Shown here one piece after another: positions 2,915 through 54,439 of a DNA stretch of 64,000 nucleotides. Positions within the stretch are counted from its first letter, which is position 1. Each line of letters begins with the position of its first letter. Both the position numbers and the translations under genes were made by a program. Origin of the DNA: Ruegeria sp. Ofav3-42 (GTDB taxonomy: Bacteria; Pseudomonadota; Alphaproteobacteria; Rhodobacterales; Rhodobacteraceae); assembly GCF_022347725.1 (NCBI RefSeq), contig NZ_JAKRGB010000007.1, positions 186,001-250,000 of the forward strand, read 5' to 3'. The notes below the pieces were generated by a model, which ran no database searches, was not told where the DNA came from, and was given only the letters and a program-made list of their open reading frames with translations.

Positions 2915-2950
2915 CGCCGTTTTCCCCTTATTTTATTGACGTTTGACTTT

Positions 2951-2989
2951 CCGTGGTGGTACCAGTCGTACCACATATTTACACCACGG
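2951..2989. promoter_or_regulatory. Nested inverted repeats before the integrase
   Basis: Two palindromes lie between the left att repeat and the integrase start. CCGTGGTG (2951-2958) pairs with CACCACGG (2982-2989), and inside it GTGGTAC (2956-2962) pairs with GTACCAC (2968-2974). The right arm includes ATTTACACCACG (2977-2988), which matches ATTTACACTACG at 9752-9763 near the right att repeat at 11 of 12 positions. Location suggests integrase arm-type binding sites or an autoregulatory operator. Confidence 0.45.
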
Positions 2990-3001
2990 AGACCCCGAAG
3001 A

Positions 3002-4375
3002 ATGAGCGACACGAGGAACCTTGAGCAACCACGTGGACCCGGCACGGCTTGGCGGGTACGCATGTCGACGCCGAAAAATCTTATCGGGACTGAGAACCCA
3101 GAGACAGGCGAACCTTTCGGTCGCACCATCATACGCAACCTTGGGGGCTGCCGACACTTAGCGACAGCACGGAAACTCAGGGATATTGAGATTTCCAAGA
3201 TACGAAAGCTGGAACTACAACGACAGCGCTATGGGGACGCAGCGGCAGACCGATGGGCAGAGGCTATGGCAGACCCTGACCCAGAGGCAGCAATGCTGGC
3301 CCGTGATGTGTTCTATGATGAAGTTGAAAGATCGCCCAAAGAGGTGCGGGCGGCATTTGGTGCAAGAGGTATGGCCAAGTCCAAACCTTTGGCTGAGATG
3401 GTGGAGAAATTTATTGAGGCACGTGCGCCGGGGAACGCCGCTGGGTACACCCCTCTGAAGGGCTCTACAGTCAACGACTTCAGGACAGCGATACGCTATC
3501 TGGTCGACAACCTAGGCAGTGACATATCCAACCTGCATGTAGACGATCTCGCGGACGTTGAGGCGGTGGCATTCAGGGAATACCTAGGGGGCATCGTGTC
3601 TGAGCGGACAAAGCAACCACTGGCAGGGGCGACCATTCAGAAGCTCATGACACAACTGCGCATGTTCTGGTCATGGACGGTCGAGACAAAGGCCACAAGC
3701 CACACTTCAGTGGAACCCTTCACGCTGCCCAGAGGTGTCACTCGGGTGGCTGCTACGCCGAAAAAAGAAAGGGTGATGTATAAACCGGAGCAGACCAGCG
3801 CTTTGTTTGAGGCGCGGCCACAGGGCACACCTATGGGCGCTCTGATGCGGTTGGGGCTAATTTTGGGTACACGTATCTCAGAACTAGTGCGAGTCACTGT
3901 TCAGGATGTAGACGCCGATGGCGCTGGGCTAAAGATCATCGTTGGCAAAAGCGAAAATGCGAAGCGATGGACGCCGATACCTGCAGAGCTTCAAGAGATG
4001 GTGGCTATGCTACGTGAGGCGGCTGAGGATAGTGAAGGCGATAAGGGGCGACTTCTGGGGGCGTTCAGTTTGGACAAACGGACGGGCAACAGCAAGCAAG
4101 CCAGCCAGTCATATAGTCGGCTTCGGGATGATGTTCTGGGCCGACCCGAAGGCAACGTGATGCTGGACTTTCATTCGTTCAGGCACACGTGGCGGACCAT
4201 CGCACATAGGGCGGGCGTTGACGACAGGGACGCTGTGCAGCTTGGTGGCTGGTCTAAGGATGAGCGCAGGGCCAGCGAGATATACAACCACGGGCTAGGG
4301 CGTGATGAGTTGCGGCAGGTGCAACGTAAGATCGTCGATAGGATGCAGACTGATGGGTACCTTAAGGCGCTGTAA
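3002..4375 (+). CDS. int: Tyrosine-type site-specific integrase
   Basis: The protein has 457 residues from the ATG at 3002, which has GGAG about 11 bases upstream; a longer TTG-started frame from 2936 would run through the palindromes and is less likely. Tyrosine recombinase landmarks are in order. A SAM-like core-binding region lies near residues 120-220. The first catalytic Arg is in LILGTRISELVRV, the His-x-x-Arg box is in DFHSFRHTWRTIAHRAG, and the nucleophilic Tyr is probably that of ASEIYNHGLG near the C terminus. The box II triad therefore looks complete. It should catalyse integration and excision at the tRNA-Arg att repeat beside it. No excisionase is recognisable. Confidence 0.93.
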   Translation: MSDTRNLEQPRGPGTAWRVRMSTPKNLIGTENPETGEPFGRTIIRNLGGCRHLATARKLRDIEISKIRKLELQRQRYGDAAADRWAEAMADPDPEAAMLARDVFYDEVERSPKEVRAAFGARGMAKSKPLAEMVEKFIEARAPGNAAGYTPLKGSTVNDFRTAIRYLVDNLGSDISNLHVDDLADVEAVAFREYLGGIVSERTKQPLAGATIQKLMTQLRMFWSWTVETKATSHTSVEPFTLPRGVTRVAATPKKERVMYKPEQTSALFEARPQGTPMGALMRLGLILGTRISELVRVTVQDVDADGAGLKIIVGKSENAKRWTPIPAELQEMVAMLREAAEDSEGDKGRLLGAFSLDKRTGNSKQASQSYSRLRDDVLGRPEGNVMLDFHSFRHTWRTIAHRAGVDDRDAVQLGGWSKDERRASEIYNHGLGRDELRQVQRKIVDRMQTDGYLKAL

Positions 4376-4453: not shown

Positions 4454-4969
4454 ATGGGCGCAATTGATGGGGTGCCACTACTTCTTTCTGCAGGAGAGAC
4501 TACGGCGCGGCGGGTAGAAAATACAGTGACTGAGCTTCACAATCTAATTGATGAGCAAGGAGGACGGACTGTCTTCGTGAATGGTCTCCGGCTGGCCACT
4601 GCTCAAATTGAGATCGCCGCAGTTGGTATCTTTTCTCTGTTCGAGGCGCGGCTGCAGTCCCATTTCCCCCAAGGTTCGTTTTTCAAGAAGCTCAAAACGC
4701 ATCTAAATGACCTAGGAGAGACCGACCTCTCAAATGACATCTGGCACTACTACTTGGCAATCAACGTACTGAAGCATGGACAAGGTGGCAGTTACGAGGA
4801 GTTGTGCAAGTCCTCTAACCTCCCGTTTTCAATAAAGCTGCCGGGGGAAGCCTTTTTCAACGAAGGCGACGTCGCCGAACCAGAAGGGTTGATAGACGTT
4901 ACCGCAAAGGGCTTTTTCGAGGGGCTTCTTCATACATTGGAAGAGGTTCGAGTGTCATTGGAAGGTTGA
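4454..4969 (+). CDS. Hypothetical protein, element cargo
   Basis: This 171-residue protein starts at an ATG behind GGGAGA, a plausible ribosome site. I do not recognise its family. It has no signal peptide or membrane segment. The first half is likely helical (ETTARRVENTVTELHNLIDEQG), and a central stretch NDIWHYYLAINVLKHGQGG is rich in aromatic and polar residues. The C terminus is acidic. It stands alone between the integrase and the recombinase remnant, a usual place for accessory cargo genes in integrated elements. Its function is unknown to me; being the only intact gene in that stretch makes it a candidate for a host-modifying role, but this is inference. Confidence 0.65.
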   Translation: MGAIDGVPLLLSAGETTARRVENTVTELHNLIDEQGGRTVFVNGLRLATAQIEIAAVGIFSLFEARLQSHFPQGSFFKKLKTHLNDLGETDLSNDIWHYYLAINVLKHGQGGSYEELCKSSNLPFSIKLPGEAFFNEGDVAEPEGLIDVTAKGFFEGLLHTLEEVRVSLEG

Positions 4970-5064: not shown

Positions 5065-5352
5065 GTGCTGCGCATACCCCCCGGTGGGGCCACCTCAGGA
5101 CCAGCTCTCTCCACCTGCGGGAAGTTCCCTTTAGGGGCCGTTGCTCAGTTTGAACGTGAGGTGATGCTTGAGAGGCAGCGGGAAGGGATTGCGAAGGCCA
5201 AGGCTGAAGGGAAGTTCAAGGGACGCCCCGCAATGGATGAGGACAAGGCAACAGCCATCCGTGAGGCATTCCAGAGCGGTGTGAAACCGAAAGACATCAT
5301 GGCTGAGTTTGGTATCAGTCGAGCGAGCGTTTACCGCATCGGGCGGAGTTGA
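5065..5352 (+). pseudogene. Serine recombinase (resolvase/invertase), C-terminal remnant
   Basis: From about 5136 the frame encodes GAVAQFEREVMLERQREGIA and then a Hin-type helix-turn-helix (KPKDIMAEFGISRASVYRIG). This is the last third of Tn3-resolvase/DNA-invertase family proteins: the end of the long E helix plus the DNA-binding domain. The catalytic N-terminal domain with its Ser nucleophile is absent. Residues before GAVAQ (MLRIPPGGATSGPAL) do not resemble the family, except that CGKFPL may be a shifted remnant of the usual TPTGKL. I read it as a truncated, inactive gene. A small DNA-binding product cannot be excluded. Confidence 0.75.
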
Positions 5353-5856: not shown

Positions 5857-6222
5857 ATGAAAGCCTCTGAACTCAACACTGAGAATGTCGCGACCACACG
5901 CGACAACATACCTGTCACGTCAATAGCAAAAGACCCCCGATTCTGGTTTCGCTCTGGTGAAGCACCCAGCACCAACCACATCGACACCCTAGCGAAAGCC
6001 TTACGGTCTGGTCGAGAACTGGACCCGATACTGCTCTGGCGGGAATGCGATGATACAGGCAGCCATACCGGGCGATTGATCATCATGGATGGGGGCCTCA
6101 GGCAGCGGCGTTACCGGGTTCAGCGTGGATGCCCTACTGGGCGACCTATACGGTCAGCACGCGACCAACAAAGACCGCATCAACATGAACCTAGAGAACA
6201 CGACCGACCAGCTTGCCGCTGA
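5857..6222 (+). pseudogene. ParB/sulfiredoxin-like N-terminal domain, truncated by deletion
   Basis: The start is an ATG at 5857 behind GGAGCCAAGAG. Residues 1-75 resemble a ParB-like nuclease/partition fold: a strand pair NIPVTSIAKDPRFWF, a helix HIDTLAKALRSG, then LDPILLW and GRLIIMDGG, the usual spot of the ParB box strand. After about 6085-6110 the frame turns into Arg/Pro-rich residues that are merely the shifted frame of the downstream virion gene. This marks a deletion junction that removed the rest of this gene and possibly the 5' end of the next. ParB-like proteins of this size in podoviruses often lie in early regions far from virion genes, which supports a large internal deletion. 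Confidence 0.55.
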
Positions 6223-8191
6223 ACGTGATGCTCTTGGCACCAACTACACGCGCACCGTCGCAAGCCTTCCGTCAGTCCAGAAGCCAAGAGCGCTTGGATA
6301 TGCGGCTGAACGCAAGCGCGCCATCGTCGACGAGTACAATAACAACTTCGACAAGGACAACGGCGACATTGACGCCTTCCTTGCCCAGTACGCCGAGAAC
6401 GACTTCGCGGCCTACGGGGACAACCCCTTTATCATGTCAGGCTACCGGGAAGGAATGGGGGGGCTGTTTAATGCGGTCAAAAACCAGCACTCCGAATACC
6501 AATCTGGTCTGGTCAAAGAACAGACAGGCACCAACTTTGTTAGCGTCACTCGGGGAGCAATCGACACAGCCATTGCAAGCGGCGGGGACATCATGCCTCA
6601 CGTTCGGGCCATCTACACCGACCATAAGAAAGCCCTCGGGTTGACCTATGCGGAGATGGATGACCACGTCATGATGGTTGCTGCCGAGTACGCAGCAGCC
6701 GGTGACTTCGCAACGGTGGAAGCAATCCTGAACTATGAGGCTGTCGGAGACGACGGCACCAAAGTGGGTTCCTTCTCTCAGCGCCCGAAGTATTCCGAGA
6801 AAGCTGCCCAGCTATTGGAAACCGCCAAGGCCAACCAAGGGAAGCACCTGAGGGAAGCCAACACTGCGACTATGGTGGACCTGAGTGTTGCCGCTTCGGT
6901 GGGTGGGCTGTCACCTGAACAGATCGTCCAACTGGATACACTGAAGAAGAGTGAACAGATCAGCCAAAGGGAGCATGAGGGTTTGCTTGAGCAGAACCGC
7001 AAGGCTCTGAAACGACAGACGGCTGAAGCGTGGTCCGACAACATCAAGCTGGAAGCAGGTAACGAGGCCCTCAAGATGGTGCTTGAAGGACGTGCTTGGC
7101 AGATCATGGACCAAGAGGTGGTTAACCCTCACACAGGCGATACGATCAGTATCACCCGTGAGGAACTGGTTCAGAAGAACGCCGAACACATCATGATGAC
7201 GCTGGAAGGCAAAGGTTCCACACCGGCAGTCATGGCGCAACAACTCGGCGCGATGGGTATCGACTACAAGTATCCCAAATGGCAGGCGGCTATGACCTTT
7301 GGGCACATTGCAATCACTGACGCTCTGGCTTCAGTCGACGCTAACGGTCAAGTTGAGCTACCTGAACGGGCAACCGTTGGGTACGACCTTTACAAGGGCC
7401 TGAGCGACAACCCGCAGGTTCGTGGACGCCATGTTTCTGATGAGGCGGAAGCGATCTACCGTGACGCTGAGTTGTTGGAGAGCCTTGGATGGGAGCCGAA
7501 TGAGGCCCTTCTCAAGTCCGCTACGATTGACCGTAAGGGTGGTCGGAAGTCCCTGTCATCCTCTGTTGAGCGGGGCGAGTTCTATACCGCCGTAAAAGGA
7601 CTGGTGAAACGCCGTGGGTTCCTTGGCTTCGGCGAGAATGTAGCCAATGGTCAGCGAGTATCTCAGGATATTGAACACATGGTCCGCGTTCAGATGGACC
7701 TCGGCGTCCCGATGGAGAAAGCTATCGATAACTCGGTCGAACTCTGGGAACAGAGCCACACCGTGATCAACGGTGCTGCCATCAACACCCGCGACATCTG
7801 GGTGCCGGGCAACATGGATGAAGCCTCCACGGCCTACCTGACAGCATTCGCTGCGGCCTCAGGGGACGACGTCGATGAGCTGACCCTCATGCCTACGTTC
7901 GATGGTTCCAACTATTGGGTGGTCGCCTACAAAGGCAACGTGGCTCACTCAGCGGACGGGACGAAAGAACTGCCCAACCGCATCCACATCACACAAATCC
8001 AACAGGCTGCCGTCGATGCTCTTGAGAGCGCAGGGCCATCCTTGGACGACGTGAACTCCACCATCCAGAAACGCTCTGACTTCATCGCTGAACAGGAAGC
8101 CAACCCTCCTGAGCAGACGAAGGTCACCATCTCACCGGACATCTCAGCGAACCCGCTGCTGGCTCCGATCAACAGAGGTGAAGACCGATAA
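6089..8191 (+). CDS. T7 gp15-like internal virion protein
   Basis: This 700-residue protein is close in size to T7 gp15 (about 750). It is largely helical with no signal peptide. The second half follows the gp15 pattern: a block on ejected-core residues (ELLESLGWEPNEALLKSATI), a region ending in DIEHMVRVQMDLGVPMEKAI, and a C-terminal beta-like segment (NTRDIWVPGNM). gp15-like proteins form part of the internal core ejected by podoviruses to build the DNA channel across the cell envelope. The assignment rests on architecture recalled from T7, not an alignment. The 5' end overlaps the ParB-like frame by 134 bases at a deletion junction, so the ATG at 6089 may be a fortuitous start of a 5'-truncated gene. 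Confidence 0.55.
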   Translation: MGASGSGVTGFSVDALLGDLYGQHATNKDRINMNLENTTDQLAAERDALGTNYTRTVASLPSVQKPRALGYAAERKRAIVDEYNNNFDKDNGDIDAFLAQYAENDFAAYGDNPFIMSGYREGMGGLFNAVKNQHSEYQSGLVKEQTGTNFVSVTRGAIDTAIASGGDIMPHVRAIYTDHKKALGLTYAEMDDHVMMVAAEYAAAGDFATVEAILNYEAVGDDGTKVGSFSQRPKYSEKAAQLLETAKANQGKHLREANTATMVDLSVAASVGGLSPEQIVQLDTLKKSEQISQREHEGLLEQNRKALKRQTAEAWSDNIKLEAGNEALKMVLEGRAWQIMDQEVVNPHTGDTISITREELVQKNAEHIMMTLEGKGSTPAVMAQQLGAMGIDYKYPKWQAAMTFGHIAITDALASVDANGQVELPERATVGYDLYKGLSDNPQVRGRHVSDEAEAIYRDAELLESLGWEPNEALLKSATIDRKGGRKSLSSSVERGEFYTAVKGLVKRRGFLGFGENVANGQRVSQDIEHMVRVQMDLGVPMEKAIDNSVELWEQSHTVINGAAINTRDIWVPGNMDEASTAYLTAFAAASGDDVDELTLMPTFDGSNYWVVAYKGNVAHSADGTKELPNRIHITQIQQAAVDALESAGPSLDDVNSTIQKRSDFIAEQEANPPEQTKVTISPDISANPLLAPINRGEDR

Positions 8192-8249: not shown

Positions 8250-8711
8250 ATGAGAAACACTGAAATCACCATTCACACCGACGGTTCTTGCCGTGGCAAT
8301 CCCGGTCGCGGTGGCTGGGCGGCAGTCGTCCGAAGATACGAGGACGGCAACGAAATCAAGAAGCGGCCCGTCTGTGGCAGTGTCACACACACCACAAACA
8401 ACAGGATGGAAATGACAGCTGCCATCAAAGGCATTCGTCAGATCAGACGCGACGAAAAAGCCCAGATCACGGTTTATTCCGACAGCCGGCTGCTTATCCA
8501 AGGGATGACCAAATGGGTGCCAAAATGGCAGACTAACGGCTGGCGTAATGCGGGTGGGAAACCCGTCGAGAACCGCGACCTTTGGGGAGAGCTTTTGGCC
8601 GCATCAGACGGATTGAACGTGCAATGGGAGTGGGTGCGGGGACACGCTGGGGACCCAAGGAATGAAGAAGTCGATGGGTTGGCGGTAGCGGCAGCCAACA
8701 AGGTCGCGTGA
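8250..8711 (+). CDS. rnhA: Ribonuclease HI
   Basis: This 153-residue protein has all catalytic features of RNase HI. They are TDGSCRGNPGRGGWA (first Asp), NNRMEMTAAIKGI (Glu), VYSDSRLLI (Asp), GHAGDPRNEEVDGLA (His and last Asp). It cleaves RNA in RNA-DNA hybrids in the cytosol, removing primers and R-loops. I chose the ATG at 8250 rather than the open frame at 8178 because it puts the first strand at residue 3, as in the family; the ribosome site is weak. It sits directly after the virion gene in the element and is likely a phage replication gene, distinct from the host copy expected elsewhere. Confidence 0.93.
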   Translation: MRNTEITIHTDGSCRGNPGRGGWAAVVRRYEDGNEIKKRPVCGSVTHTTNNRMEMTAAIKGIRQIRRDEKAQITVYSDSRLLIQGMTKWVPKWQTNGWRNAGGKPVENRDLWGELLAASDGLNVQWEWVRGHAGDPRNEEVDGLAVAAANKVA

Positions 8712-9015
8712 ATGCCTATGGAAAGTAGAGAATACATCTCAAGCTGTCCCCGTTCCGAGGGGGGCAGCAGTGTTTTAACCACTGAAACTCGCCACGAAAA
8801 TTTATACAGATAGGTTAAACAACAGTCCCCGCCGTAGCCCCCGCCGTGACAACTTGTGGAGTGCAAGAACCCGCGCACAATATGTGGAGAGCTCACAAAT
8901 TTTTTCTTTGAAAAATGGACAATTTGCCATTTTATAAACACATAGTGCTATCAATTACGACGAGACTTGCTTATTCGGCGGTAAACCCGTTAAGCGCTCT
9001 CGGGGGAGATTCGAT
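8712..9015. other. Non-coding stretch, AT-rich toward its end
   Basis: No gene is supported in these 304 bases. CCCGCCGT occurs twice in close succession near 8827-8845. AAAATGG (8912-8918) and CCATTTT (8927-8933) form a 7-bp inverted repeat in an AT-rich segment that probably holds the promoter of the small-protein/retropepsin pair that follows. Confidence 0.4.
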
Positions 9016-9261
9016 ATGACAAAGCTACTTGAGATTGAAATCCAAACATACAACGAGAAGCTTCCCGAGCTTCTTGCACACGCTGGCAAATTTGTCCTCA
9101 TCAAGGAAACAGAAGTAATCGACTACTTCGACGCTTACGCGGATGCCCTAAAAGTTGGGTACGAAAAGTTTGATGATGGCGTGTTTCTGGTGAAGCGTAT
9201 TGCCCCGTCCGAAACTGTTGCGTTCTTTACTCGGGATATCGTCACTGAATGCCGAGTATAA
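9016..9261 (+). CDS. Small conserved protein paired with a retropepsin
   Basis: This 81-residue protein starts at an ATG preceded by GGGGGAG with ideal spacing. Its sequence has a compact alpha-beta look: a helix TYNEKLPELLAHAG, a strand FVLIKETEVIDYF, then DAYADALKVGYEKF and FLVKRI. I recall similar short proteins (…GKFVLI…YEDAL..GYE.F…FLVKQI…) encoded directly upstream of aspartyl proteases in other bacteria, but know no function. It overlaps the protease gene by 13 bases, so they are translationally coupled. It could be a substrate, regulator or partner of the protease. Confidence 0.75.
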   Translation: MTKLLEIEIQTYNEKLPELLAHAGKFVLIKETEVIDYFDAYADALKVGYEKFDDGVFLVKRIAPSETVAFFTRDIVTECRV

Positions 9262-9695
9262 CACTGAACTACGGAGCTGCTGGACCTCTTCTACAGGTCA
9301 TGGTCGGTCTCAGCGCCCCGCATTCGGCGGCGCTAACACGCCAAGGAAAAACCCCACCAATTCCCGTTCTGGGCACGTTTCTGGTCGACACAGGCGCGTC
9401 AGGTACGTGCGTCGACCCCGGATTGGTTGCACCTTTGGGTCTGACCCCAACTGGGTCTGTCGATATGCAAACACCATCAACCAATGGAAAGCCAGTTTCC
9501 TGCCCTCTGTATGACGCAAGCTTAATCGTACCAAACGGCACAGCAGGAACACTACCGTTCGTTATTGATGCGCTTCCCGTAATGGAAACAACCCTACGAC
9601 CTCAGGGAATTGACGGTCTGATCGGGCGTGATTTCTTATCGCAGTGCGTTTTGATCTGTAACGGCCCGACGACTATTATGACAATTTGCTACTAG
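9249..9695 (+). CDS. Retropepsin-like aspartyl protease
   Basis: This 148-residue protein carries the retropepsin signature. VLGTFLVDTGASGTCVDP holds the catalytic Asp-Thr-Gly-Ala-Ser at about residues 49-53, and IDGLIGRDFLSQCVLICNG is the later hydrophobic-Gly motif that packs behind the active site. With one DTG motif, activity would need a homodimer. No signal peptide is evident, so a cytosolic role is expected. The start overlaps the upstream small gene by 13 bases. It is the last gene before the right att repeat. Bacterial proteins of this type are often annotated as clan AA aspartic protease, with no established substrate that I can name. Confidence 0.85.
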   Translation: MPSITLNYGAAGPLLQVMVGLSAPHSAALTRQGKTPPIPVLGTFLVDTGASGTCVDPGLVAPLGLTPTGSVDMQTPSTNGKPVSCPLYDASLIVPNGTAGTLPFVIDALPVMETTLRPQGIDGLIGRDFLSQCVLICNGPTTIMTICY

Positions 9696-9719
9696 CCGCG
9701 CAGGTCAGGTTTTGTATGT

Positions 9720-9770
9720 AATTTGACGTAGTGTAACTATCATCACACCAGATTTACACTACGTCAAATT
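9720..9770. repeat. Perfect 17-bp inverted repeat at the right element end
   Basis: AATTTGACGTAGTGTAA (9720-9736) is perfectly complementary to 9754-9770, with a 17-base spacer. The right arm continues the motif ATTTACACTACG that also occurs beside the left att site. There is no T-tract, so a simple Rho-independent terminator for the protease gene is less likely than paired integrase arm sites, although it could act as a bidirectional stem-loop. Confidence 0.7.
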
Positions 9771-9829
9771 CAGACATTATCCTTGCTTTTCAATTGCCTA
9801 TCTTGAGGGTTTGCGCTGGCGCGAAAGCT

Positions 9830-9847
9830 TCCTGCCGGGGTCGCCAG
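9830..9847 (+). repeat. Right attachment-site repeat
   Basis: This is the second exact copy of the 18-base tRNA-Arg 3' end, in the same orientation as 2897-2914. It defines the distal edge of the integrated element. The rest of the tRNA gene is absent here, so only the copy at 2837-2913 is functional. Confidence 0.9.
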
Positions 9848-9980: not shown

Positions 9981-12890
9981 TTAGCCCCACGCTTCCGATA
10001 GTATCGCGCGGAATTCCTGTACGATCCACTCTGCGGACGAGCGGCGACGAACTGACTCCATTATTTCCTGAGCATACTTCCACGATGCAGACCCGTAATC
10101 GTCGTTTAGCTCGAAAAGGAAACGCTCAATCTCGTCCAACTCGGTGCTAGGTACATAATACGGGTAATCGTCGCCCAAATAAAACCGGTTGTCGCCGACA
10201 TCGCGTTCGCAAAGGATCACGGCACCGCATTTTGCGGCGACAAAACCTTTCGTGAACGGCTTGAAGCCATCAATCTTGCGAACGTTTCGGACCGCAAAGT
10301 GGGCGTTGTAGTTGCCCAATTTGGTCAACCAGCTGTCTTCAAGTTTGTTTGTCGTTATCAGGTTGTAGTCAACGAGGTGCCCGAGGGTTTCGCTGCCAAC
10401 CGTATTTACCAGCTCGCCAAAATACCCAACCCTCAACTTGTCTTCCGGGGCCGCGGCGACATCAATTCTGAGATCCGCATGGTGTGTCAACAAGTAGCTG
10501 GGTGTCGATGAAGAGGTGGCTCTGATACTCTCAAGACCGTTAAGCGATGCCGCGATGATCATATCATAATGCGAAGCCTTCTCAGGCGATACCACAGCGT
10601 CTACAGGGTCAGCTGCAATCGCAACATTACGCATTCTAAGATCGTGTATCTGGCTATCGCTGATCCGGTCCATAAGACGCTTTCCAACCACGACAAAACT
10701 ATCCTCCACCGAGGTTAGGTCGGTCGTACATGAAACGGCAGCCGTATCCTGCAACTGTTCTTTCAGCAGCGATGCCAACTGATTGGATCGCATAAATGCA
10801 GACCCAAACGAGCGGCTTTCTTCATCAAACAGAAATGCCACCTTTGGCTGCTGCTTCGGTTTTGTTAGTTTCCTTTGAACGCGCGGTTGGTGCGGCAATT
10901 TAGTAAACAATACGTTGTTGCGGGAGTCTCCCAGAGAATTGGGGAGCGCAAGCGGCTTCGGCCCTTTTTTGTGTACCAATTGGTAAAAGCTGATCTGCTC
11001 GCGGCAGGACTGCGTGGTTACTTCCTGCCACCAAGCTTCCATCAAGTCCTTGATTTCCGGGTTATGGTGTTTGCGCCAGATAAAGGAGCATTCGTAGAGG
11101 CCGGCGTTGCGTGGAAAACCCTCCGCTTCATATTTTGCCATCTGATGGCTGACAATTTCAGGATCATCCTCGTTCATCAGGATGATCGTTTCGGCCTCAT
11201 CAACGATATCATCCCGGCTTGGGTGCCTCCACATGACAAAGTCATGCGCTTGCAGCCATTTGGCGACAAAGGAATCCAGGCGCCCCTTAAAGAGCGTATT
11301 CGCATCGACAAATAACGAATATTCCCGGTCGGGGAAAACCTCATGTGGCATCAGTTTGAAATATTTTGCCGCAAGGTTCGAACTGGTGTGCGACGGCTCT
11401 CGGCGTTCTATCGTCCATCCAGGCGCAGAGATATCTTGATCGGTGAAGCAGACAAACTCAATACCGTTGTGCTCCGTGCACACGGGCGGCAGCTGATCGT
11501 AGTCCCCAAACAAAGACGTATAGATGACCAACCCGTCAGGGATTTTGGTCGACCCAACGAAGTTCTGAGGCCGAACTATCGGCCCTTGCTGGGACGTACT
11601 GCTTGTGTTGGCCAAAAAGCGTGGAAGCATCGATTGATCAAAGCTTTGGCCTGCGGTTTCAATCTCTTGGCTCAGTTTGGCAAATTTTTCCAGCGAGCCA
11701 CGAAAACCAAGGCGGCGCTCGGTCAAGATTGCATCCAGCGCTGCGGAATACACAGCGGACATTTTTAGCCGGCCTTCGAGTTGAACAAACGCGTGCCGGT
11801 TATGAATGATGTGCGTTTCAAGCGCAGCAAGTTCGCCATTCAAACTGCGTTTGGGGTCTCGTTTTGCGATGCTCTTCCGAATACGCCGACGTGTTTTTTC
11901 GCTTAACGGCAAACGGCTTCTGGCCAGCTTCTTGAGAATGCTATAGCGAAGTCGGTCTTTCATAAGTTTCGACGGGCGTGATCGTGCCTTAGCGATTTCT
12001 TCGCGAAGTTCGTGGCTTCCGTTGGCTATGCGCGCCGTCACATCCCAGGCTGAATTCAGATCCTTGCTGTATTCGTTGGTTACAGTTTTAACTTTTTCTG
12101 CAAAATCCGCCCGGAGTTCATTGATAATCTGAGAGCTTGCGGCGTTTTGGCTTTCCAGCTTTCCTAATTTCTCGCTCCACGAAAGATCGTTCTTTCCTAA
12201 TTTCTCGCTCCATGAAAGATCGTTGCTCTGGGCGTAAAACAACGCATAGATAGCATCACGTCCGGCTTCAGAAGACGCTAACTGCCTAAATTCCGAAATT
12301 TCCGGTGTCGCATCGCGGCCAAAAAACAGAACCCCAAGCCCGTGCTGAAACGGAAAGTTGATCGTCGTGTATTGGGTTTCAAGCTCCGCCCAATACTCAA
12401 TTACCCCGAAGTCTCCGCGGCGAACTTCCGTGTCGTGAAACAAGACGATTGCATTCTGAGAAAGCTTTGGAATCCAGCTTTCGAAATCCTCCTTGACATC
12501 CGAGTAACGATGTCGGCCGTCGATATGCAAAAGGTCGACTGATCCATCCGGAATATCATCCAACGCGTCGGTGAAAGTCTTTCTTAGCAGCGTGCTAAAG
12601 TTGCCGTACTTCGCATTCTCCGCTTCAACCGTTTCAAAGACGTCATTATCGTAAAATCCTGCGTGTTCGTCACCCTGCCAGGTATCTACAGCAAAGCAGC
12701 GTGTCTGCAGTTCATTTTCTTTCACAGCCTGGCAAAATGAAAAATAGGAAAACCCAAAATGCGAGCCAAGTTCGACAATCGTCGACGGGCGCATTGCCTT
12801 GACCAACCAAGAGGCAAAATGCCCGTGACGGAGCCAGGCTGACGTTGGAACGTACGAAGGCATTGAAGCTGCTTGACCCAGAAATTTCAT
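9981..12890 (-). CDS. Giant fusion: methyltransferase, coiled coil, DUF616-like glycosyltransferase, GT-B-like domain
   Basis: This 969-residue cytosolic protein has four parts. Residues 25-185 form a class I SAM methyltransferase of the Methyltransf_24 type: VELGSHFGFS is motif I, then LLHIDGRHRY and VLFHDTE. Residues about 235-330 are charged and helical, with a short exact peptide duplication (NDLSWSEKLGK). Residues about 453-670 match the DUF616/TOD1-type glycosyltransferase fold, with VIYTSLFGDYDQL and the DxD-like LFVDANTLFKG. The end (about 680-969) resembles a GT-B glycosyltransferase acceptor/donor pair. It probably adds a sugar and a methyl group to a surface glycan. It shares head architecture with the 1514-residue protein at 15992-20536, so both likely act on the same polymer. 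Confidence 0.75.
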   Translation of the reverse strand: MKFLGQAASMPSYVPTSAWLRHGHFASWLVKAMRPSTIVELGSHFGFSYFSFCQAVKENELQTRCFAVDTWQGDEHAGFYDNDVFETVEAENAKYGNFSTLLRKTFTDALDDIPDGSVDLLHIDGRHRYSDVKEDFESWIPKLSQNAIVLFHDTEVRRGDFGVIEYWAELETQYTTINFPFQHGLGVLFFGRDATPEISEFRQLASSEAGRDAIYALFYAQSNDLSWSEKLGKNDLSWSEKLGKLESQNAASSQIINELRADFAEKVKTVTNEYSKDLNSAWDVTARIANGSHELREEIAKARSRPSKLMKDRLRYSILKKLARSRLPLSEKTRRRIRKSIAKRDPKRSLNGELAALETHIIHNRHAFVQLEGRLKMSAVYSAALDAILTERRLGFRGSLEKFAKLSQEIETAGQSFDQSMLPRFLANTSSTSQQGPIVRPQNFVGSTKIPDGLVIYTSLFGDYDQLPPVCTEHNGIEFVCFTDQDISAPGWTIERREPSHTSSNLAAKYFKLMPHEVFPDREYSLFVDANTLFKGRLDSFVAKWLQAHDFVMWRHPSRDDIVDEAETIILMNEDDPEIVSHQMAKYEAEGFPRNAGLYECSFIWRKHHNPEIKDLMEAWWQEVTTQSCREQISFYQLVHKKGPKPLALPNSLGDSRNNVLFTKLPHQPRVQRKLTKPKQQPKVAFLFDEESRSFGSAFMRSNQLASLLKEQLQDTAAVSCTTDLTSVEDSFVVVGKRLMDRISDSQIHDLRMRNVAIAADPVDAVVSPEKASHYDMIIAASLNGLESIRATSSSTPSYLLTHHADLRIDVAAAPEDKLRVGYFGELVNTVGSETLGHLVDYNLITTNKLEDSWLTKLGNYNAHFAVRNVRKIDGFKPFTKGFVAAKCGAVILCERDVGDNRFYLGDDYPYYVPSTELDEIERFLFELNDDYGSASWKYAQEIMESVRRRSSAEWIVQEFRAILSEAWG
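12160..12225 (-). repeat. 33-base tandem duplication within the fusion gene
   Basis: Two adjacent 33-base units (12160-12192 and 12193-12225) differ at only two positions. Each encodes 11 residues around LSWSEKLGK, so the frame is kept. It lies in the helical linker after the methyltransferase domain and looks like a recent slippage event that can vary linker length. Confidence 0.85.
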
Positions 12891-13529
12891 TAGATTTCTA
12901 CTGACTTTCGCTTTGTAGGTGACAATTTACGACGCCTCGTTATTCCAGCTGTGCAGCAAAAACAACTGTGTCATCGGAAATGCCACAGCCTGTCATTCGT
13001 GGATACAGGTTTTGCCTTGTGTGCAAAATTAAACCGCATGCATTCAACGGTGTCCAACATGGTTTCAATGCGGGGATCTCAACTTTCCGCTGCGATTGAA
13101 TTTACAAGATGGCTTTCTGTCAAGAACATAAAATTAAATAATAAAATAATGAAGCGGATGGGTGAGTTTGGCGCGCCGTTCGGTCTCGGTATTTCGGCAC
13201 CGGCTTTGCGGGTCAGTCGCTACCAAACTTCCCTGCCGCAGAATGCCCGCCTGTCATGCCCTCAGACAGCTTGTCCAGCCAGATCGGCGCGCGAGCCGGA
13301 TCGTCAGCTTGGCGGGAATCCGCCTGCGAGTTCTGCGTTTTGAAAAGTCGGAACACGGGCCTCCCGGTTCTGATCTGGCGGGCAATTCAACGCGGGTGCT
13401 TTGGTTTCCGCAGCCTGTCAAGTGAAGCACCATTGATGCCGGTGCTAATACCAAAGAACGGTGGCGAACCGATCAGAAACGAAGCAGGCTAGTAGAACCC
13501 GAGCCTGCAAAGACCCAGCGCGGCTTGGA
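12891..13529. other. Intergenic stretch without recognisable gene
   Basis: About 640 bases separate the fusion gene from the broken methyltransferase. Several short open frames in different phases (for example 13254-13454 on the minus strand and 13162-13425 on the plus strand) are rich in Arg, Ser and Pro and look like shadows of high-GC non-coding DNA. A short AT-rich segment near 13120-13150 contrasts with its surroundings. It may be debris of a lost gene or insertion sequence. Confidence 0.4.
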
Positions 13530-54184: not shown

Positions 54185-54380
54185 CTGCACGTTCTCTTTC
54201 ATCCGGACTGTAACCGTCGGCTCTGGCTTCTCACCAGATCTGCTGACACTCTTCCATGGTTCCACAATTAGTCCGAAAACCGGTTCCCACTTTTCGGATC
54301 GTGGACACGGGCAAGCCGCTCGCGGGCTTACGGGTCGTAGCCCGCATACCGCCGGTGGGGAATTTCGCCCCGCCCTGAGA
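54185..54380 (-). promoter_or_regulatory. FMN riboswitch (RFN element)
   Basis: On the minus strand the transcript begins with CAGGGCGGGGCGAAATTCCC, then CACCGGCGG, and ends with the conserved AGCCAGAGCCGACGG, AGTCCGGATGAAAGAGAACG. These are the invariant stretches of the RFN aptamer, and the variable hairpins (GTAAGCCCGCGAGC and CCGAAAAGTGGGAACCGGTTTT) lie between them. It precedes ribH by about 70 bases, so FMN should repress lumazine synthase by blocking translation or transcription. Confidence 0.96.
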
Positions 54381-54439
54381 ACGCGCGGACCTTGCCAAGG
54401 TGCAGGCGGTTCTGCAAGAGATTTCGCAGGAGGACAGCC

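Follow-up and report, generated by a model that had tools for sequence, protein, structure and literature searches.

The question raised by this locus is whether two small overlapping genes near the end of an integrated element, one of them coding for a retropepsin-like protease, belong together as a unit, and what such a unit could do. In the window, the whole stretch of 64,000 nucleotides that was analysed, a small gene on the plus strand (9016-9261, ATG start, 81 aa) is followed on the same strand by a gene for a retropepsin-like aspartic protease (9249-9695, ATG start, 148 aa, no signal peptide evident), and the ORF coordinates overlap by 13 nt (9249-9261). The protease reads DTGAS at its catalytic loop (residues 47-51, plus strand 9387-9401) and IGRD further downstream (residues 125-128, plus strand 9621-9632); the description in the earlier note, an 81-residue protein overlapping by 13 bases a DTGAS protease with the IGRD motif, was therefore exact. 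A GGGGGAGA stretch lies ahead of the ATG of the small gene, and no stretch comparable to it was found upstream of the second ATG, that of the protease, which lies inside the small gene. The source genome carries a single copy of the pair.

Chance or mis-called ORFs were ruled out by an ORF check and by comparison with the closest relative found, another Ruegeria locus (L006) with 75% identity in the small protein and 80% in the protease. Non-synonymous divergence from this locus was far below synonymous divergence, at 0.10 against 0.88 per site in the small protein (residues 1-62) and 0.14 against 0.77 per site in the protease. Because of these low non-synonymous rates, and because both genes turn up again, arranged alike, in unrelated DNA, a gene pair explains the locus better than chance, and both genes are under purifying selection.

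An att-bounded element of 6.95 kb carries the pair as its final cargo. The integration site is a tRNA-Arg (CCT) gene on the plus strand (2837-2913; ARAGORN, Rfam), and at the 3' end of this gene lies the left copy of an 18-bp repeat (2897-2914), which recurs as an exact direct repeat at 9830-9847. Between both copies, all on the plus strand, are a tyrosine integrase (2936-4375; Pfam Phage_integrase, E 1.1e-12; PHROG phrog_1, E 5.9e-28; residues from 2990 used in the search), an ORF of 171 aa (4454-4969) with no Pfam match at E<=1 and one PHROG match of unknown function (E 0.047), a C-terminal piece of a resolvase/invertase (5065-5352; phrog_125, E 8.5e-18, model positions 128-199 of 254), a 700-aa podovirus remnant of which the N-terminus matches internal virion proteins of the T7 gp14 type (6089-8191; Pfam T7_gp14, E 5.5e-8) and an RNase H (8250-8711 from its first ATG, the ORF being open from GTG 8178; Pfam RNase_H, E 2.2e-39). 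The 700-aa protein was matched in 7 phage records, 5 of which were Rhizobium phages; RHEph01, RHEph21, Pasto and TRX32-1 were distant Rhizobium-phage matches. Upstream of the pair there is a terminator-like hairpin (8743-8768, plus strand), found by consensus scan only, and behind it a perfect inverted repeat with 17-nt arms (9720-9770; RNA fold z -7.6 for 9700-9790), which may be a bidirectional terminator. The pair had been called element cargo, and this held, as the exact tRNA-Arg repeat encloses the tyrosine integrase, the phage remnants and the pair; the element is a degraded podovirus-like tRNA-Arg prophage in which the pair takes the place of cargo.

The left flank was present at full length in 18 of 18 same-genus genomes, and neither the integrase nor the pair was found downstream of the tRNA-Arg in the nine same-genus genomes inspected, over 1.5 kb in seven loci and 4 to 19 kb around eight, six of which were from the same genomes. 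This absence, together with the single copy, points to a strain-specific degraded prophage. The DNA downstream of the tRNA-Arg differs among same-genus genomes (L135-L142), making it a variable locus; genome G1047 has, near the tRNA, an ABC protein and a UDP-galactopyranose-mutase-like ORF known from the polysaccharide-type region of the window, and in G1050 the ABC protein is nearby. The window also contains two near-identical 33-bp tandem repeats (12159-12224) within a 969-aa ORF on the minus strand, and an FMN riboswitch on the minus strand (54187-54386).

In Pfam, the larger protein scores 33.0 bits against Asp_protease_2 (E 9.8e-8), for which the cut-off is 24.3. DTGA is invariant in the 15 proteases of alignment A4, from which L004, L009 and L022 were left out (frameshift, deletion, contig end), and a wider alignment shows it unchanged in 32 of 34; two partnered proteases have an altered motif, DTRA in L049 and DNGA in L055. 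The second motif, hydrophobic-hydrophobic-Gly, is present as LIGRD, with G126 invariant and D128 nearly invariant in A4. No solved structure was found for the protease by sequence search. Its predicted structure, a monomer with a mean pLDDT of 92.2, has the retropepsin fold, and the best match among solved structures was APRc of Rickettsia (5c9f_A; Z 12.8, 1.9 A over 113 residues, Foldseek E 4.6e-5), with Z scores of 11.8 for the Rous sarcoma virus protease and 11.3 for the HIV-1 protease (3dck_A; 2.2 A over 98 residues). With a single-lobe DTG, the second Gly motif and the predicted fold, the protein can be assigned to the retropepsin-like aspartic proteases (clan AA).

In 30 of 36 proteases, among them 6 that start with GTG or TTG, the first residue after the start is a proline, which suggests that the enzyme is synthesised with its final N-terminus rather than released from a precursor by a cut. 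The N-terminal PSITL presumably resembles the PQITL start of the retroviral enzymes; as residue 4 of the model falls on HIV residue 1 in the structural alignment, only the conserved proline is claimed here and not this likeness.

The small protein is best described as a putative DUF5678-like domain (about residues 1-62), with a score under the Pfam cut-off, joined to a conserved tail (residues 63-81, AFFTRD...C; codons 9202-9258, plus strand; delimited by low-pLDDT blocks and conservation). It matches DUF5678 (PF18929) at E 0.0059 and 16.8 bits, where the cut-off is 23.2, and among 18 relatives six reach E<=0.1, the best having 8.5e-5. The model (pLDDT 81.5) runs helix-helix-strand-strand-helix-strand to about residue 61; from there the tail is unstructured, with pLDDT block means of 68, 53 and 57. 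Its helical N-terminal part and its tail are extra relative to DUF5678. The predicted viral proteins that it resembles include a DUF5678 protein of Pandoravirus neocaledonia (TM 0.64, E 9.7e-3) and a second Pandoravirus DUF5678 model (TM 0.49, E about 0.01); the BFVD models A0A2U7UD66 and A0A2U7UG46 are Pandoravirus DUF5678 proteins of similar predicted fold. Against solved structures nothing was found at E<=0.001, the best second-look Z being 4.0. The window protein matched no DNA-binding family in Pfam or PHROG, and one of the 18 relatives matched Pfam HTH_52 (E 0.019). DUF5678 proper was tried as a guide to distribution and discarded as uninformative, being found in 0 of 150 phylum genomes and also in 0 of 14 control genomes.

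Across seven close relatives, tail and core are equally conserved (mean pairwise identity 0.56 and 0.54), although part of the conservation of the tail can stem from the overlapping protease start region, above all where the tail is of the LGxxSHA type. The invariant tail residues are E66, F71, R73, D74 and C79. Conservation equal to that of the core suggests that the tail binds a target of some kind. Other clades carry other tails, namely LGxxSHA, ALGLL and PASVxF. The FF pair of the tail is encoded about 21-26 nt upstream of the protease start, which is outside the usual ribosome-binding range.

To what extent the two genes go together was determined from both sides. In 23 loci gathered by protease similarity alone, a small gene lay just upstream in 17, the match being weak in L016 (E 0.054) and L018 (E 0.0013), and no upstream small gene was present in the other 6 (L012, L013, L014, L019, L020 and L024). 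A profile of 15 partnered proteases chosen from these loci gave matches in 39 of 385 genomes of the class, and all 20 of the strongest places (E<=1.6e-10) have the small gene directly upstream, a result which is tempered by the profile itself, since one built from partnered proteases favours partnered relatives. The next match, in genome G333, has neither partner nor DTG. The weaker matches without partner include a 5'-truncated gene (G626) and members of a different retropepsin family (G615:C142 and others), intact DTG being found in both groups, and long secreted-type ORFs. At L085 (G597:C154) the small protein ahead of the retropepsin has diverged further (E 0.0013 with the profile), and the pairing may reach beyond the family.

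From the other side, a profile of the small gene found 31 places in 21 of the 385 genomes. Twenty have the protease directly downstream, once with an in-frame stop, and nine are orphans; the remaining two are a place with a 5'-truncated protease remnant (L036) and a false positive in a long ORF (L045), which stays in the denominator and is not counted as an orphan. In the 385 genomes, then, the partner exists without its effector, and a strong match to the effector without the partner was not found. Decay does not always spare the partner, as both genes are damaged in G358 and in the first copy of L009. At L009 (9690-10702) the damaged pair is followed by an intact second small gene, a duplication with decay.

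The small gene is first in all 36 pairs, and 31 of these overlap (28 as scripted, before the starts of L011, L021, L094 and L041 were set anew by inspection, in part from the Met-Pro pattern), with offsets from -46 to +7 nt; overlap is thus the rule. The offset of -13 is seen in 7 pairs as scripted and in 8 with a better start for L021. Distances between partners correlate with distances between proteases (Mantel r 0.735 over 34 pairs, L004 and L022 being excluded; 0 of 5000 permutations as high). The pairing is real and old, and its layout, two overlapping genes with the small partner first, is like that of type II toxin-antitoxin systems.

We therefore read the pair, tentatively and with slightly less than an even chance in our own estimate, as one inherited unit of a cytosolic retropepsin and a dedicated controlling partner, carried as selfish (addiction- or defence-like) cargo of the degraded tRNA-Arg prophage. 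Control by the partner is proposed because of the asymmetry between the two genes, in which the partner can be alone and the strong protease match is not, and because of the coupling and the conserved flexible tail. The partner would be translated first, and ribosomes finishing it could start the protease, so that the overlap would allow the protease to be made only together with its partner. The DUF5678-like domain would bind the protease, while the tail would lie in or near the substrate cleft as a pseudo-substrate inhibitor or a cleavable guard. The dimeric protease would be set free when the partner is lost or becomes diluted once the element is gone, or on a trigger such as infection, and could then cut host or phage proteins. 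As the mode of control, inhibition is favoured over substrate supply or cleavage. The role, either selfish retention or a superinfection/defence function carried by phages and elements, is the weakest step, a guess backed by the mobility, by an orphan partner on a phage and by a weak match of the protease to the PADLOC model PDC-M08B. In its boldest form, which we consider possible but rather unlikely, the retroviral-type protease would act as toxin in a mobile system of addiction or abortive infection, the DUF5678-like antitoxin would keep the dimer inactive by threading its tail through the cleft, and phages would answer with an orphan antitoxin such as that of L098. Phage-borne antitoxin mimics are reportedly known for DarTG (PMC11481870).

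The small protein might instead be an adaptor, which does not restrain the protease and captures substrates, or a location, and presents them. In two genomes the small domain forms an in-frame fusion with a ParA-like ATPase and has no protease (L039, 646-1734; L040, 1264-1833), and in others it stands alone, as a binding module would; in addition RimB, a bacterial retropepsin, is reported to act within a module of several proteins on a single C-terminal tail dedicated to it (PMC11957791). However, the overlap, the fixed order and the lack of strong partnerless proteases in the genomes searched fit joint control better, and the conserved tail would require a separate role. We consider an adaptor unlikely.

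Another possibility is that the protease has its partner as substrate, and that a cut in the tail of the partner yields an active regulator or a signal. The bonds cut by retropepsins resemble hydrophobic motifs such as those found in the tails (FFTRD, LGYYSYA, ALGLL), and the tail is unstructured in the model. The tail was rejected as a certain substrate, since codons near the overlap also encode the start region of the protease. The orphan partner of L098 keeps the tail although no adjoining protease gene overlaps its codons, and structure comparison found no helix-turn-helix or other effector fold in the partner, both of which argue against this reading and make it distinctly unlikely. The tail kept in this orphan also speaks for the favoured reading, control by the partner.

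The earlier note had placed the pairing in unrelated bacteria, and this was confirmed: it recurs in Alpha-, Beta- and Gammaproteobacteria, in a 'Deltaproteobacteria' MAG and in Verrucomicrobia, Hydrogenedentes and Poribacteria. Carriers include Ruegeria, Methylobacterium, Roseateles and Steroidobacter, with Verrucomicrobia, 'Deltaproteobacteria', Hydrogenedentes and Poribacteria represented by MAGs. One locus (L107, G377:C98, 70-5340) contains five small-protein/protease pairs in tandem, mutually diverged, as in an expanding array. Mobility, also claimed before, holds for part of this range, as the pair is found in the integrated element, on five IMG/VR virus contigs (L002, L003, L004, L092 and L094, the protease frame being broken in L004) and on a Methylobacterium plasmid, the sole match in 72,556 plasmid records. 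The profile of alignment A3 was set aside for the viral scan as too diverse. A sixth IMG/VR contig, from an uncultivated phage, has the small gene alone (L098, 9989-10234), followed after 64 nt by an ORF of 190 aa (MAETNPEVTRK...).

Some of these contexts could indicate that the pair is a factor of the phage life cycle, used in assembly, lysis or lysogeny control, as it lies near head genes in L002, directly before the portal gene in L003 and about 2.5 kb downstream of a peptidoglycan-binding/CHAP protein in L007. Such a role is very unlikely, however, as many pairs lie in ordinary chromosome, and the 50,697 isolate phage records contain no match for the window protease, the window small protein or two further proteases.

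Whether the pair lies in mobility or defence islands was addressed with a neighbourhood survey, of the kind suggested in the earlier note, using 131 of 133 chosen neighbour proteins beside 35 pairs (the 2,374-aa ORF of L091 and window 12951-13340 were omitted; neighbour genes came from a longest-ORF script with GC-position weight, and some may be false). No Pfam family was found in more than two neighbours, and the families listed were mainly metabolic or housekeeping. Likewise, no PADLOC model matched more than two of the 131, counting the 25 listed of 111 models, as raw counts without a control set and with many of the 25 probably matching one protein; double matches were PDC-M72A and ankyrin, and single defence matches were a type I specificity subunit, SspH and mad8. 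A shared third gene was dismissed, because the neighbours of the window and of L002-L009 had only the pair and its antisense shadows in common, apart from two matches to L014 that were kinase-like. Among the matches listed, an integrase is near the pair in the window, on plasmid L005 (8.8 kb), in G468 (0.4 kb) and on two virus contigs. Close relatives are mobile, and many distant pairs are in ordinary chromosome. The survey thus upheld mobility for the close relatives; defence islands were unsupported, the neighbours of the 35 pairs being mostly unrelated. Of the contrary outcomes named in the earlier note, housekeeping contexts were found in part, as the wider family is often in ordinary chromosome, while an inactive protease and genes that do not co-occur were not: the genes co-occur and the protease looks intact. 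In one already paired genome a second pair of a different kind was seen (L117, 17018-17507, minus strand), in which a 94-aa protein overlaps a short DTGF protein; neither had a Pfam or PADLOC match.

The largely ordinary neighbours of the wider family would also suit a host regulatory or stress protease pair without any link to mobility, its patchiness being due to gene loss only, and other bacterial retropepsins are reported to act in stress tolerance (PMC12239564). This is highly doubtful, since the distribution is patchy: by profile search, 21 of the 385 class genomes have the small gene, as do 9 of 398 in a phylum draw (paired in five of these nine and alone in four, all of one genus), and the protease was found in 4 of 295 genomes of the family. 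In addition, the window copy is on an element that was not found at this tRNA in the nine same-genus genomes inspected. That the pair is a decaying passenger, a prophage leftover without present function, has next to no chance of being right, for although the element is degraded to a resolvase piece and one virion-protein remnant, both genes are intact, with non-synonymous change far below synonymous against Ruegeria.

The pair is real and well conserved and, as far as could be searched, mostly in open papers with few subscription papers or preprints, undescribed. In 5.39 million open papers one paper was found for DUF5678, which judging by its title has no bearing on it, and no literature was found on PDC-M08 or on the combination of retropepsin, bacterial and prophage. 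Few bacterial retropepsins have known partners or roles. A retropepsin-plus-partner unit on phages, plasmids and prophages would be a compact, genetically tractable system for the roles of non-retroviral retropepsins; it could teach how a dimeric aspartic protease stays safe in the cytosol and show whether addiction or defence against phages makes use of retropepsin proteolysis. DUF5678-like proteins would also gain a first hypothesis of their function.

Several known systems can be compared with the pair. The window protease matches PDC-M08B of the PADLOC candidate system PDC-M08 weakly (E 3.9e-5) and partially, and a second PDC-M08 model at E 0.011; PDC-M08B also matches three of five other proteases tried (best 1.3e-6), and none of six small proteins matches any PADLOC model at E<=1. 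With APRc (RC1339, Rickettsia conorii), for which we know of no gene partner, and with the retroviral proteases (family A2), the window protease shares the fold, DTGA and IGRD-type motifs at 14-20% sequence identity. It has no signal or membrane segment, whereas APRc is reported to be membrane-embedded (PMC4140852). The RimB and Rlo retropepsins of Pseudomonas are, as reported (PMC11957791, PMC12239564), likewise bacterial retropepsins in an operon-encoded module with a C-terminal tail as target; as described there, the Rlo enzymes are secreted, whereas no signal peptide is evident in the window protease, and RimA is a cyclic-di-GMP phosphodiesterase (PMC11957791), which rules it out as a precedent for the small DUF5678-like partner. 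The toxin-antitoxin and protease-repressor modules COG2856-Xre and ImmA-ImmR are also mobile two-gene operons with a protease (PMC2701414), and that survey makes no mention of aspartyl or aspartic proteases. As presented there, these modules join a zinc protease to an HTH partner, whereas the pair in the window joins an aspartic protease to a DUF5678-like one.
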